From Acidobacteriota bacterium (GTDB taxonomy: Bacteria > Acidobacteriota > Blastocatellia > Pyrinomonadales > Pyrinomonadaceae): DNA of 64,000 nucleotides. Below are positions 41,408 through 48,008 of the stretch, piece after piece; the stretch's first letter is position 1, and every line of letters begins with the position of its first letter. A program made the position numbers and the translations under genes. Where the stretch lies: NCBI GenBank assembly GCA_003697135.1, contig RFGC01000043.1:1-64000 (forward strand), read 5' to 3'. A model generated the notes under the pieces. That model was not told the DNA's origin, made no database searches, and worked only from the letters and a program-made list of their open reading frames with translations.

Positions 41408-41707
41408 CTATCTGTCATCGTAGTCTTCGTCGTAGTCGTCATAGTCGTCGTAGTCGTCATCATAATCTTCATCATAATCGTCATCATAATCATCGTCATA
41501 ATCTTCATCGTCATAGTCATCATCATAATCTTCGTCATAATCTTCATCGTAATCCTCGTCTTCGTAAACCTCTTCTAATTCGACGGGAGAAAGATTTACG
41601 ATTTCAAGGCTAATACCGCAATCTTCGCAAGTTACGAGGTCTCCATTTTCAGAATCTGGATCAACATATACTTCTGCGTCACATACTGGACAAGTTCCCG
41701 TTAACAC
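41408..41707 (-). CDS. LysW-like zinc ribbon protein with long Asp/Tyr repeat tail
   Basis: The GTG start at 41705-41707 has a strong GGAGG 9 nt upstream. Residues about 5-46 follow LysW, the amino-group carrier of lysine/arginine synthesis: GTCPVCDAEVYVDP, then LVTCEDCGISLEIVNLSPVEL. Four Cys form a zinc ribbon. LysW normally ends at EDWGE, whose last Glu carries the substrate. Here the chain instead runs on for about 50 residues of DED/DDD blocks separated by 12 Tyr and ends in DDR. The total is 99 residues. Ordinary LysW function is therefore doubtful. No lysine or arginine synthesis gene is nearby except speA at the window's end, which degrades arginine. Confidence 0.85.
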   Translation of the reverse strand: MLTGTCPVCDAEVYVDPDSENGDLVTCEDCGISLEIVNLSPVELEEVYEDEDYDEDYDEDYDDDYDDEDYDDDYDDDYDEDYDDDYDDYDDYDEDYDDR

Positions 41708-41847: not shown

Positions 41848-43638
41848 ATGGAAATCTATTATCAGCTTGTAAAAGACGAAAATTCATTGCTTCAAGCTTG
41901 CAAACTCTTTTCTTCTGCTGAATATGTTGGCTTGGATACGGAAACGACGGAGCTTGACCCATACCAAGGGAATTTAAGGCTTCTTCAACTGAGCGATGGA
42001 AAAGAAACAAGAATTGTTGATCTAAACTGTTTTGGCGAAAAATTTGACGACAGCACTAAGAAAAATGCTTCTCTTCGTAACGATGAAAGACTTACGCCTT
42101 TGCGAGATTTGTTAAGAAGCTCAAAACCTATAAAGGTAATTCACAATGCAAAGTTTGATGCAAAGTGGATTTACCATTGTTTGGGAGTAGAGATAGGTGG
42201 GATATTTGATACCTATCTTGCAAGTCAATTGCTTTGGTTCGGCGATCAAGACAGAAAGCATGGACTTGCTGATGTAGCTTCGCATTTTCTCAACATCAAC
42301 ATGGATAAAAGAGAGCAGACTTCTGATTGGAGCGCTCCTGAGCTGACAGATTCTCAGCTGAGATATGCTGCTTACGATTCGATTGTTGCTTGGCAACTGT
42401 ATGAAAAACTTAACAAAAAATTAGAGGATAGAGATTTAGCCGAAGTAGCCAAGATCGAATTTGAATGTGTAATGCCGATTGTAGCAATGGAGATTAACGG
42501 ATTTTATTTGAACTCGTCTGCTTGGGCTAAACGATTAGAGGATTTAGAAGAGGTCTCACAAAAAATCCTAGAAGATATAGGAGCAAGCCGGCAAACTCAA
42601 GTTAGTTTTTTCGGAGGGCTTACCCAATACATCGAACTTGATTCATCAGAGAAAATTCTTGGATTTCTGCGTGAGAATGGCGTTCCAATCGGGTCCGGTT
42701 CTGAATTAAGTTTATTGGAACTTCAATCGTTGGCAAAGGACTATCCTGTTGCTGAAAAAGTGCTGGATTATCTTGCCGCATCGGATACGCTTTCTAGTTT
42801 GGGAAAGGAGTTTTTGAAAGTTACAAGAGACAATCGCATTTATCCTGATTTTAGGCAGATCACAAGTCCCTTTGCTCGCATAGGTTGCCGCAATCTGAAA
42901 CTGCATAAACTCATCGGCAACAAGCACTATAGCTATCATTTTTCCGTTCCTGAGTCGAGGAGTCTGATCGTTCTAGATTATCCTTTGTTAGAAGTAGCTG
43001 TAATGGCTCACTTATCAGAAGAAGAAAAATTTGCTGAGTTGTTAGAGAAAGCTTCAGAGCCATCGGATTTCTACAAAGCTATGGCTTTAGAGCTTTTCGG
43101 TAGTTCTAGTGAGGCTTTGGCGGTAGAGTTTTTGCATCATGCCATTGTTTACGGTATTGGTGTTTCTTATTTTGCAAGAATAAACCGCATTAACCAGTCA
43201 GAAGCGGAAGATTTAATGGAGCTTTATTTTCGAGCTTTTCCGAAACTTAGTTCGTGGTTGATGAAAATTTCGGATTTTGTGAACGAGAAAGAGGAAATCC
43301 GAAGTGCTTTTGGAAGAGTTTATAGGTTTCGTTTTGATCAGAGAATTGAATCGCAGAAGCTAGGCGCAATCAGAATGGCGAGGACTTTTGCGATTCAAGC
43401 AACGCTAACCGATATTCTAAAAATGACTCTTGCGAATCTTTACTACGGTTTGAGAGGGACATCGGCTAAACTCGTCAGTTTTGTTCGTGATCAAATCTGG
43501 ATTGAATGCGATCAAGAAGACAAGGAAGCCGTTTCGACAAAGGTGCGTGAGATAGCTCGAAGAACTCTTAGAAACAAACTGATAGAAAGCAAGGCTTTAG
43601 TCAGGGTGCAAGTTTTTGATTCGAGCGCAAAAATTTGA
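41848..43638 (+). CDS. DEDDy 3'-5' exonuclease fused to a degenerate family A DNA polymerase domain
   Basis: Residues 20-195 are a DnaQ/RNase D-type exonuclease with a complete DEDDy set: D30 and E32 (GLDTETTEL), D104 (NAKFD), Y173 and D177 (YAAYD). Residues about 205-596 follow PolI. Motif A keeps D377 but reads LDYPLLEV instead of DYSQIELR. Motif B (O-helix) ends VYG but has A423 and E427 where Arg and the essential Lys belong. Motif C reads VRDQ instead of HDE (D548 kept, Glu replaced by Gln). Exonuclease activity is likely and nucleotide addition doubtful. I chose ATG 41848 (596 residues) over TTG 41797. Neither has a good ribosome site. Confidence 0.85.
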   Translation: MEIYYQLVKDENSLLQACKLFSSAEYVGLDTETTELDPYQGNLRLLQLSDGKETRIVDLNCFGEKFDDSTKKNASLRNDERLTPLRDLLRSSKPIKVIHNAKFDAKWIYHCLGVEIGGIFDTYLASQLLWFGDQDRKHGLADVASHFLNINMDKREQTSDWSAPELTDSQLRYAAYDSIVAWQLYEKLNKKLEDRDLAEVAKIEFECVMPIVAMEINGFYLNSSAWAKRLEDLEEVSQKILEDIGASRQTQVSFFGGLTQYIELDSSEKILGFLRENGVPIGSGSELSLLELQSLAKDYPVAEKVLDYLAASDTLSSLGKEFLKVTRDNRIYPDFRQITSPFARIGCRNLKLHKLIGNKHYSYHFSVPESRSLIVLDYPLLEVAVMAHLSEEEKFAELLEKASEPSDFYKAMALELFGSSSEALAVEFLHHAIVYGIGVSYFARINRINQSEAEDLMELYFRAFPKLSSWLMKISDFVNEKEEIRSAFGRVYRFRFDQRIESQKLGAIRMARTFAIQATLTDILKMTLANLYYGLRGTSAKLVSFVRDQIWIECDQEDKEAVSTKVREIARRTLRNKLIESKALVRVQVFDSSAKI

Positions 43639-44231: not shown

Positions 44232-46391
44232 TCATTTTTTCTTTTTGATGCTTCGGTTGCTAGTTTCGACTATACGAACTTTAAGAATTTTGTCCCAGCG
44301 GACTATGGAATCAACGACTTTCATATCATTTTCGTTTACGTAGCCAAACACTGTATAGCCGCCGTCAAGATGTGGTTGAGGTGAATGAGTTATGAACCAT
44401 TGCGAGCCGCCTGTGTCTTTGCCTGATAAAGCCATGCCGACAGCTCCTCTATCGTAGGGTAGCATGTTTATTTCGCATCTGATTTGCCAGCCCGGACCAC
44501 CGTTGCTGTCGCCTCGCGGATCGCCATCTTGAATTACGAAATTCGGCACGACACGATGAATTTCCAATCCGTCAAAATATCCTTTTCGAGCAAGTTTGAT
44601 GAAATTATCAACTGTTAGCGGAGCTTCTTCAGGCATGAGTGAAATGGTGAAATCGCCTTTTTCGGTTGTTACGATTGCTTTCAACGTTCCATTGCGGCGT
44701 GAAATCGCACGCAAATAGTCAGCCTTCTTGTTTGTCACTTGACCTAGCTTTGTTTTGATGTTCGGAGAATGAGGCTTTACAATCCCGACCATCTTTTCAA
44801 TGTCCGAAAATTGGTTTGTCAATCCATTTTGCTTTATCAGATTAGCAGCGTGGCGGCGAACTAGAAAATTAGGAGATGATAGAGCAAGTTGCAAAGTCGG
44901 AATCGCTTTTTCCTTATCAAGTTTTGTCAAGGCTGAAAGGATTGCGATCTGAGCATCGTCATAATCGGTATCTGATTGCATCGAGTATTTGAAGGCAATT
45001 TCCAGAGCCTTTGTGATTTTTTCGTTTGGTGCTTCTTTCGCAAGAAGTTCAGCCGCTGCGGTGCGAATGAAGACGTCTGAAGATTCCAGCGACTTAATCA
45101 GCACCGATTCGGTTTCTTCAGACTTAAAAGATGCAAAAGCCGATAAAACGTTTGGTTGCGCCATTGGTGGTGCTTTTTTCAAAAAATTTTGCAGAATTTT
45201 CAAAGCCTTTTCTCTAATTTGCGAATTGGAAGAGATAGCTTCAAGAGCTTGAGAGACGGCAGAAAAATAACGCCAATCAGTTTGCTTTTCGTTTTCGATG
45301 GTTTCGAGATATTCGAGAGGTGAAACTTTTGCGAAGGCTATCTCGATTTCAGGTGCAGGATTTGCGACTCTTTGTCTTAATTTTCCGATTAGATCGAGAA
45401 AATCCTTATTGTTTGATTCAGAAAGCAAAGAGCCGAGAGCGCTAATAAGTTCAAAAAGTTCGTTTTGCTCTATTGGATTTCTAAACCTAGATTCTTTGTA
45501 GTTTTCAAAGATGGTTTGAGCTTTTTTGAGAAGTTCTGGCGCTATTTCTTTAGCTTCCAAAGTGGCTAAAGCACGAATGGAAGAAACGCGCACTCTTAAA
45601 TCATCGTCGCCGAGTGCGGCTTCAAGCAGTAGCGGAACTGAAGTTTTGTTTTCGGTTACGCCAAGGGCGCGTGCGGCATTGGCGCGTGCGATTGCGTCGG
45701 AGTCAGTAAGAAGAATTGTTTGCAGTTGCTCGACGGCGATTTTCGATCTCATTCGGGCAAGTGCATTCGCGGCATCGGCTCGAATACGAGCGTCGAGATT
45801 AGTTAAAAATCTCATGACTACCAAATCACCATTTTCAGGGCGGGCGCGGAATATGGCTGTAAGACCCAAAAGTATAACTTGCTTACTTTGCTTTGGTCTT
45901 GCTTCTTCAGATTCCATAAGGTCGAGAATAGCTTCGCCCAAATCTTCTGCTTCTTTTGTTTTGGGATTTGCCATGGCAATTTTCCCTGCCGCTTCGACGG
46001 CGCGGGAGCGCAAAGTGTCCGCAAGGCTTTTGTCCTTTAGGAGTTTCAAGATTGTATCTGATGCCTTTACCGATTCGATTTCTCCTAGAGCAAAGATGGC
46101 ATTCAGACGCACTTCTTCGTTCGGATCGGTTTCGGATAAGATTTTCAAAATCTCAACAGCCTTTTCGTCGCCTATTCTACCAGCCGCTAGTGCCGCACGT
46201 TTTCTGATTTGTGGGTTCTTGCTTTTAAGAAGTGATTCCAACTCATCGTCAAATCTCCTTTCGTCTTCTGCACGGACTATGCGTAGAATTACCGATGTTG
46301 GAATTCGGTTTTGGGCATTGATGAATGAGAATAAAAGAAGTGGTATAACGGCAAATACAAATGGTTTTGCAAAATCTTTGCGGAGAAACAT
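44232..46391 (-). CDS. Secreted HEAT-repeat protein with C-terminal cyclophilin domain
   Basis: ATG 46391 begins a signal peptide (FVFAVIPLLLFSFINAQ). Residues about 45-545 are HEAT/PBS-lyase-type repeats, for example KRAALAAGRIGDEKAVEIL and RARAALGVTE-like units. Residues about 560-715 form a cyclophilin PPIase: TEKGDFTISLMPEEAP, HRVVPNFVIQDGDPRG, SGKDTGGSQWFITHSPQPHLDG. The catalytic region (FVIQDGDP, GSQWFI) is well kept. It has 719 residues. A periplasmic folding factor with a scaffold arm is the likely role. TAAAAT ends 7 nt before ATG and no ribosome site is seen. Confidence 0.88.
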   Translation of the reverse strand: MFLRKDFAKPFVFAVIPLLLFSFINAQNRIPTSVILRIVRAEDERRFDDELESLLKSKNPQIRKRAALAAGRIGDEKAVEILKILSETDPNEEVRLNAIFALGEIESVKASDTILKLLKDKSLADTLRSRAVEAAGKIAMANPKTKEAEDLGEAILDLMESEEARPKQSKQVILLGLTAIFRARPENGDLVVMRFLTNLDARIRADAANALARMRSKIAVEQLQTILLTDSDAIARANAARALGVTENKTSVPLLLEAALGDDDLRVRVSSIRALATLEAKEIAPELLKKAQTIFENYKESRFRNPIEQNELFELISALGSLLSESNNKDFLDLIGKLRQRVANPAPEIEIAFAKVSPLEYLETIENEKQTDWRYFSAVSQALEAISSNSQIREKALKILQNFLKKAPPMAQPNVLSAFASFKSEETESVLIKSLESSDVFIRTAAAELLAKEAPNEKITKALEIAFKYSMQSDTDYDDAQIAILSALTKLDKEKAIPTLQLALSSPNFLVRRHAANLIKQNGLTNQFSDIEKMVGIVKPHSPNIKTKLGQVTNKKADYLRAISRRNGTLKAIVTTEKGDFTISLMPEEAPLTVDNFIKLARKGYFDGLEIHRVVPNFVIQDGDPRGDSNGGPGWQIRCEINMLPYDRGAVGMALSGKDTGGSQWFITHSPQPHLDGGYTVFGYVNENDMKVVDSIVRWDKILKVRIVETSNRSIKKKK

Positions 46392-46398
46392 GGATGAT

Positions 46399-46404
46399 AT
46401 TTTA
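46399..46404 (-). promoter_or_regulatory. -10-like box at the start of the HEAT-cyclophilin gene
   Basis: TAAAAT on the minus strand ends 7 nt before the ATG at 46391. The -35 region is weak. This suggests a leaderless mRNA. Confidence 0.3.
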
Positions 46405-46436
46405 CAACCGCTTTGGCTTATCGGAAAATTTACTTT

Positions 46437-48008
46437 ATGGCTAGCAAATACGACGTCGTGGTAATAGGCGCAGGGCATAATGGCTTGACTTGCGCATGTT
46501 ATTTGGCAAAAGCGGGTTTGAAGGTTTTGGTTCTGGAAAGAAGGCACATAGTCGGTGGTGCCGTTTGCACGGAAGAGAATATAATCCCGGGTTACAAAAT
46601 AGATGTTGGTTCATCGGCTCACATAATGATTCACTTAACGCCTGTAATCAAGGATTTAGAGCTTGAAAAATTTGGGCTTGAATACATTGATTGCGATCCC
46701 TTTGCTTTTGCTCCGATGCCTGATGGCAAAGGTGCAATTTATTTTTGGAAAGATGTTGACAAAACTTGTGAATCAATAGCAACCGTCTCACCTGAAGATG
46801 CTGAAAGATACAAAAAATTTATTCGTGAATGGGAAAGGCTAAATGAAGGTGTTTTTGAAGCATTTTTGAAGCCGCCTACGCCGCTGAATCTTTTGAGACA
46901 CTTGATATTAGGCGGTAGGTCTGAAAATCCGATTGAAAGCGTCAGAAAGATATTCACAAGTTACGGCGCACTTGTTCGTGAGACTTTCAAGCATGAAGGA
47001 GTTCGCTCAGCGCTTTGTTGGCTTGCGGCGCAAAGTGGTCCACCGCCGACTGCAATGGCTTCGGGCAACTTTCTCGGATGGCATGCTATGATTCATCGTT
47101 CAGGGGTAAAGCGTCCGCGCGGGGGAAGCGGCGTTTTGACTCAAGCAATGGCTAAATGTCTAAAGCACCTTGGAGGAGAAATTAGAGTTAATGCCGAGGT
47201 TTCAAAGATTGAAGTAAAAAATGGAAAAGCTAAAGCAGTGGTTTTGAAAGATGGAGAAAAAATCGAAGCAGAACGGATAATTTCTAATGCGCATGTTTTT
47301 ACGACTTTTATCAACCTAATTGGGGAAGAGAATTTACCTTCAGGGTTAGCAGAAAGAATAAAAAATGTTCGTATTGGCAATGGTTTTGGCATGATTGTTC
47401 GATGTGCAATCAGTCAACTGCCTGATTATGTAGCGGCGCCTTCTGGCGGAAAAGCGGCTGAATGCCATCGCGGATTACAACTACTTTGCCCTTCGCTTGA
47501 GTATCTTGAAAGAGCCTATACAGATTACTTACAAGGCATCCCGTCGCAGAATCCTTGCGCTTTGGCGATGACTTTTTCGGCAGTTGATTCAACTCTTGCG
47601 CCAGAAGGCAAGCACACGCTTTTTATCTGGGGACAATACTATCCATATCAGCTTTCCAATGGAAAAACATGGGAAGAGATTCAACATGCCGAAGCTGAGA
47701 AATTGATAAGTGTTGTCAACTCTTACGCTCCCAACGTCAAAGATTCAATCATTGATTATTTTGTTCAATCACCGGTGGATTTAGAACAGCGAATTGGATT
47801 GCTAAGAGGAAATGTTATGCATGTTGAAATGGACATTGATCAGATGTTTTTATTCCGTCCTTTGCCTGAAATGTCGGCTTATAGAACACCAATAAAAAAT
47901 CTTTACCTTACAGGTGCTTCGACTCATCCCGGGGGCGGGGTCTTTGCGGCATCTGGATTTAACACGGCTAAGGTCGTTATAAAAGATGCGAAGGGCAGAT
48001 GGTTCTGA
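46437..48008 (+). CDS. FAD-dependent oxidoreductase, phytoene desaturase-like (PYROXD2-like)
   Basis: The N-terminal Rossmann motif is VVVIGAGHNGLTCACYLAKAG (core GAGHNGL) at about residues 9-29, with the second strand VLVLERRHIVGGAV. The C-terminal FAD motif PIKNLYLTGASTHPGGGVF and GASGFN-type ending are typical of the CrtI/PYROXD2 group. It has 523 residues from ATG 46437. No carotenoid gene is adjacent, and the overall pattern fits the PYROXD2-like clade, so carotenoid synthesis should not be assumed. The start is divergent from the HEAT-cyclophilin gene, 45 bp apart. Confidence 0.85.
   Translation: MASKYDVVVIGAGHNGLTCACYLAKAGLKVLVLERRHIVGGAVCTEENIIPGYKIDVGSSAHIMIHLTPVIKDLELEKFGLEYIDCDPFAFAPMPDGKGAIYFWKDVDKTCESIATVSPEDAERYKKFIREWERLNEGVFEAFLKPPTPLNLLRHLILGGRSENPIESVRKIFTSYGALVRETFKHEGVRSALCWLAAQSGPPPTAMASGNFLGWHAMIHRSGVKRPRGGSGVLTQAMAKCLKHLGGEIRVNAEVSKIEVKNGKAKAVVLKDGEKIEAERIISNAHVFTTFINLIGEENLPSGLAERIKNVRIGNGFGMIVRCAISQLPDYVAAPSGGKAAECHRGLQLLCPSLEYLERAYTDYLQGIPSQNPCALAMTFSAVDSTLAPEGKHTLFIWGQYYPYQLSNGKTWEEIQHAEAEKLISVVNSYAPNVKDSIIDYFVQSPVDLEQRIGLLRGNVMHVEMDIDQMFLFRPLPEMSAYRTPIKNLYLTGASTHPGGGVFAASGFNTAKVVIKDAKGRWF

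Follow-up and report, generated by a model that had tools for sequence, protein, structure and literature searches.

The window, a stretch of 64,000 nucleotides from an Acidobacteriota bacterium (contig RFGC01000043.1 of assembly GCA_003697135.1), encodes a protein that joins a complete 3'-5' exonuclease site to a family A DNA polymerase domain whose active site has lost key residues.

The gene and its family

The open reading frame at 41848-43638 on the forward strand is a single uninterrupted frame of 596 aa, whose start codon agrees with the N-termini of its orthologues (MEIYF...). The protein matches PF01612 (4e-39) and PF00476 (3e-33) and lacks the N-terminal 5'-3' flap nuclease domain that is the hallmark of PolA1. 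Its features are as follows.

41848..43638, forward strand: gene for the 596-aa exonuclease / decayed family A polymerase protein, ATG at 41848
41860..42426, forward strand: DEDDy 3'-5' exonuclease domain (PF01612), residues 5-193, five of five catalytic residues
41935..41943, forward strand: Exo I, D30 and E32 = E. coli D355 and E357 (alignment with E. coli PolI)
42157..42159, forward strand: Exo II, D104 = E. coli D424 (same alignment)
42364..42378, forward strand: Exo III, Y173 and D177 = E. coli Y497 and D501 (same alignment)
42598..42612, forward strand: QVSFF, residues 251-255, variant of the QxxLF beta-clamp-type motif (from conservation; predicted disordered loop)
42706..43563, forward strand: decayed family A polymerase domain, PF00476 match, residues 287-572
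42976..42999, forward strand: motif A remnant DYPLLEVA, D705 and E710 kept; S707P, Q708L, R712A
43105..43149, forward strand: O helix, residues 420-434, R754 to A, K758 to E, F762 to H; helix still predicted
43486..43494, forward strand: motif C, RDQ for HDE, D882 kept

Blastocatellia have a second family A polymerase (PRK14975.1-3), and the gene is its orthologue in this genus. Among curated families the closest is NF011539, described as "bifunctional 3'-5' exonuclease/DNA polymerase," against which intact full-length Blastocatellia orthologues (~590 aa) score ~570-700 bits; the protein of a congener (genome G204) scores 396 bits and the window protein 286.1 bits, both below the curated cut-off of 640. 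Such full-length orthologues occur across Pyrinomonadaceae and in most Blastocatellia genomes searched. The window protein shares their domain order, length, start, and exonuclease residues and is nested among them in the tree, but differs from them in having lost R754, K758, Q708, R712, H881, and E883 while keeping D705 and D882. The orthologues aligned from the family and class number about 50, and they retain the five exonuclease residues and motifs A to C. Exceptions are minor: L026 reads ELC instead of ELR, and a few have F rather than Y after D705. Orthologues from an alignment-based contig scan are biased toward intact sites, having been found partly by a motif A pattern, and the set from the genome search carries no such bias. 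No further decayed member was found in the contig scan, whose patterns favor an intact motif A, and scanning the contigs with one protein alone gave no match. Two distant homologues (L030 and L032) have SGCELR and EGCELR in motif A and keep D705, K758, and HDE. A phage origin of the decayed form was rejected, there being no close homologue and phage matches reaching ~23% identity, as was a plasmid origin, the best plasmid matches being cyanobacterial bifunctional enzymes at ~28%.

An intact exonuclease site beside a disrupted polymerase site

In alignment with E. coli PolI, all five DEDDy residues are in place, as a preliminary description of this DNA had stated. That description had also read the O-helix Lys and Arg as Glu and Ala, motif A as having lost SQI..LR, and motif C as RDQ in place of HDE, and the alignment bears out each of these: the window protein carries R754A, K758E, and F762H in the O helix, PLLEVA for SQIELR in motif A (S707P, Q708L, R712A), and H881R and E883Q in motif C (E. 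coli numbering). DNA-contact residues R631, Q677, and N845 are gone too, and because so many such residues are lost, tight binding of a primer-template by the window protein is doubtful. Among the lysine and carboxylates on which the proposal of a disabled polymerase had turned, the alignment recovers both metal-binding aspartates, D705 and D882 (D377 and D548 of the window protein), and does not recover K758 or E883. The loss of key residues thus stands, and from it we infer that the window protein has lost polymerization, although both catalytic aspartates are kept, together with E710, Y766, R668, R841, and Q849.

Decay in one genus, outside the exonuclease

Loss of the polymerase site is seen only in the window genome (G000) and in its sole sampled congener G204, the two genomes by which the genus is sampled. 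The two proteins lost different catalytic residues: in G204, D705 is replaced by F, R754 by M, and HDE by QHG, and K758 is kept. These independent losses, together with the single open frame, rule out a sequencing error or frameshift. Both proteins also carry R631L, S707P, G763A, G850A, T602S, and V749L, and these shared derived changes suggest that constraint probably began to be lost in their common ancestor, before the two lineages split. In the tree they are sisters (SH-aLRT 100) nested within the Pyrinomonadaceae orthologues, the tree being a quick one in which both branches are long and their exact placement unsure. The two loci are syntenic, with genes for a LysW-like and a VWA protein adjoining in both.

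On a fixed topology, the two tip branches measure 0.53 / 0.56 for the exonuclease part, 2.25 / 2.60 for the middle part, and 2.49 / 1.69 for the polymerase part, compared with a median tip branch of 0.18-0.19 in the other species. Exonuclease columns that are invariant in other orthologues are changed at 0 of 36 positions in the window protein and 1 of 36 in that of G204, versus 39 of 69 and 34 of 69 for invariant polymerase columns (Fisher test, P = 4e-10 for the window protein and 3e-7 for G204). In the window protein the loss of invariant columns is well beyond chance and confined to the non-exonuclease part. Fast evolution of the whole genome is ruled out as its source: PolI is 74% identical between the two genomes and the exonuclease/decayed polymerase protein only 38%, so that the divergence is specific to this protein.

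Constraint and predicted fold of the polymerase part

The polymerase domain is under purifying selection. Both species keep a full-length frame without a stop, and a saturated neutral sequence of this length would escape stop codons with a probability of ~1e-8 (window protein) or ~1e-7 (G204), given its own base composition. A pairwise codon model of the polymerase part rejects omega = 1 (LRT 50.6), which is the only use made of it, as dS is saturated and omega values are rough. The net charge of this part is still +5, and the structural invariants Y766, G767, R821, D854, and K857 are kept in both species. AlphaFold2 modeling of the window protein gave a pLDDT of 89.6 and a pTM of 0.90; the model retains the palm strands and the O helix (420-434), and its input alignment held intact polymerases, which favors such a model. 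Foldseek matched this model to the apicoplast polymerase apPol and the Klenow fragment (TM 0.79-0.84); compared with these, the window protein has the same predicted fold of both domains, is without a flap nuclease domain, and has its catalytic polymerase residues replaced.

A sliding-clamp-type motif

Shortly after the exonuclease domain, in an inserted segment that PolI lacks, is the pentapeptide QxxLF. All 50 class orthologues share the Q, L, and F of this motif (for example QASLF, QMSLF, and QLSLF), and it is absent from PolI and from E. coli. The decayed proteins have QVSFF (window protein) and QNFLF (G204), the former reading as a weaker form of the clamp motif; residues 249-260 have an AlphaFold2 pLDDT of <50, as for a flexible loop. 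Retention of the motif in both decayed proteins is no more than suggestive of a clamp role, because 10-11 of the 26 invariant columns in the middle part have changed. If clamp binding is borne out, the Blastocatellia proteins with QxxLF would be, after PolA2, the second group of bacterial family A polymerases that binds the clamp.

Proposed function

We propose, with a probability of roughly 0.6 on comparative sequence evidence, that the protein acts on DNA as a 3'-5' exonuclease tethered to the clamp, with nucleic acid held by what was once its polymerase domain. Polymerase function would have been lost or abandoned in the ancestor of the genus and the DEDDy exonuclease retained. The sliding clamp may recruit the protein to DNA through the QxxLF-type loop. 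In this model the old thumb and palm-fingers domain would grip the DNA and feed its 3' end to the exonuclease site. The likely job of such an enzyme would be the trimming of 3' ends or proofreading in trans, possibly in the service of a PolI that cannot proofread. The preliminary description had suggested that the polymerase domain might bind DNA or RNA and direct the exonuclease; the comparative pattern supports the scaffold part of this idea, along with a live exonuclease and a crippled polymerase.

The normal polA gene that this description had proposed looking for is present on contig C45 of the same genome. It encodes a PolI of 920 aa in which the flap-nuclease and polymerase motifs are intact and the 3'-5' exonuclease site is dead. 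We speculate that the work of PolI could be split over two decayed copies, in which PolI supplies the flap nuclease and polymerase and the second protein is a clamp-tethered trans-proofreader with a dead polymerase jaw. This arrangement is tentative and rather unlikely. We offer the link in trans as a hypothesis with no correlation behind it, because PolI loses proofreading elsewhere without such a partner and because PolI and the second exonuclease/polymerase are both intact in G198. In the wider phylum about half of the sampled PolIs lack proofreading regardless of whether a second exonuclease/polymerase is present, and a rule that PolI loses proofreading only where the second enzyme exists is unsupported, since losses occur elsewhere in the phylum without a partner.

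Alternative explanations

An alternative hypothesis is that the protein continues to polymerize, slowly or in a specialized role (translesion, extender, or non-templated), with its two remaining aspartates and an altered nucleotide-binding helix. Residual or specialized synthesis by the window protein is possible because it keeps both aspartates, and E710, Y766, R668, R841, and Q849 are kept with them. There is also a cautionary precedent in archaeal PolB2, for which inactivity was predicted from disrupted motifs (PMC2527604) and which was later reported to act as an extender polymerase (PMC8764526). However, K758, R754, R712, Q708, H881, E883, N845, and R631 have been lost together, and G204 lacks both D705 and D882, so that catalysis is not what selection keeps in the genus. 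Translesion specialists, moreover, usually lose the exonuclease, as PolA2 did (PMC12926913), and not the polymerase. We therefore regard continued polymerization as unlikely.

The protein could instead be an RNA 3'-5' exonuclease akin to RNase D or NrnC, with the old polymerase domain as an RNA-binding module. The exonuclease domain does also match NrnC/diDNase structures and RNase D models, and in at least one family member the intact orthologue has an RNase E/G gene close by (L210:2150-4699, in divergent orientation), with genes of the same start sequence at similar places in three others (L211, L214, and L216). That neighbor was not seen at the G000 and G204 loci of the window genus, however, and the best whole-protein matches are DNA polymerases. 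The genome already encodes a standalone 203-aa DEDDy nuclease, as well as one DEDDh gene, and a general exonuclease is therefore not otherwise missing. Nothing positive was found for an RNA-processing enzyme, an idea that the preliminary description had also raised, and conservation of the sliding-clamp-type motif points to DNA; we consider an RNA substrate quite improbable.

Similarly improbable is passive decay of the C-terminal two thirds toward loss, with no function left there: the middle and polymerase parts, which diverge very fast in both species, and the small genomes (2.5-2.8 Mb versus mostly 3-7 Mb in the family) would suit it, but it is at odds with stop-free frames in both species (~1e-8 if neutral and saturated), the rejection of omega = 1, the five structural invariants kept in both, and the confident predicted fold, even allowing for the intact polymerases in its input alignment.

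Comparison with known degenerate polymerases

In a survey of bacterial family A polymerases, many proofreading sites were dead and the polymerases live, in both PolA1 and PolA2 (PMC12926913). Actinobacterial PolA2 (APEX), described in the same survey, resembles the window protein in being a second family A polymerase with one apparently dead site; it has a QxxLF clamp motif in an unstructured loop, to which QVSFF of the window protein may correspond. The states of the sites are reversed, however, with the exonuclease dead and the polymerase live in PolA2 and the exonuclease intact in the window protein, and the motif of the latter is placed elsewhere, beyond the exonuclease domain. PolA3 likewise is without a flap domain and has an intact exonuclease; it differs in being an active polymerase, which the residues of the window protein do not match. 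Archaeal PolB2 and the C-terminal module of Pol epsilon are also conserved polymerase homologues with disrupted polymerase motifs, but these "inactivated" proteins belong to family B and have lost both the exonuclease and polymerase sites (PMC2527604, PMC2669801). A search of the open-access literature, with subscription journals mostly outside it, turned up no family A protein that is polymerase-dead and exonuclease-live. Retention of the exonuclease with decay of the polymerase thus appears to be the reverse of the usual degeneration. Such a mirror-image lineage would offer a natural test of two ideas: reuse of a polymerase fold as the DNA-binding part of a nuclease, and trans proofreading on behalf of a PolI unable to proofread.

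PolI variants and gene neighborhood

All PolI sequences sampled from Blastocatellia (L149-L171) have lost the DEDDy proofreading residues and have live flap-nuclease and polymerase motifs. The PolI of the window genome (L001, contig C45) has Lys in place of the near-universal R712 in motif A (SADYSQLELK). Two Acidobacteriota genomes, 94% and 90% complete, show only a short exonuclease/polymerase and no full PolI (L207 in G074 and L208 in G131, respectively); motif A of these short enzymes is SGCELR or EGCELR. In one genome of the same family as the window genome, two family A polymerase-like matches fall within very long open frames of 1260-1271 aa (G319:C31:45785-47212 and G319:C117:93766-95187).

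Around the gene itself, 41408-41707 on the reverse strand encodes a small zinc ribbon protein of the LysW-like type (PF21344), whose tail of ~50 residues is nearly all Asp, Tyr, and Glu. Its homologue at the same place in G204 (L209:8897-9202) is 59% identical and has a shorter D/Y/E tail. On the other side, 44235-46547 on the reverse strand encodes a HEAT-repeat protein fused to a cyclophilin-type peptidyl-prolyl isomerase domain.
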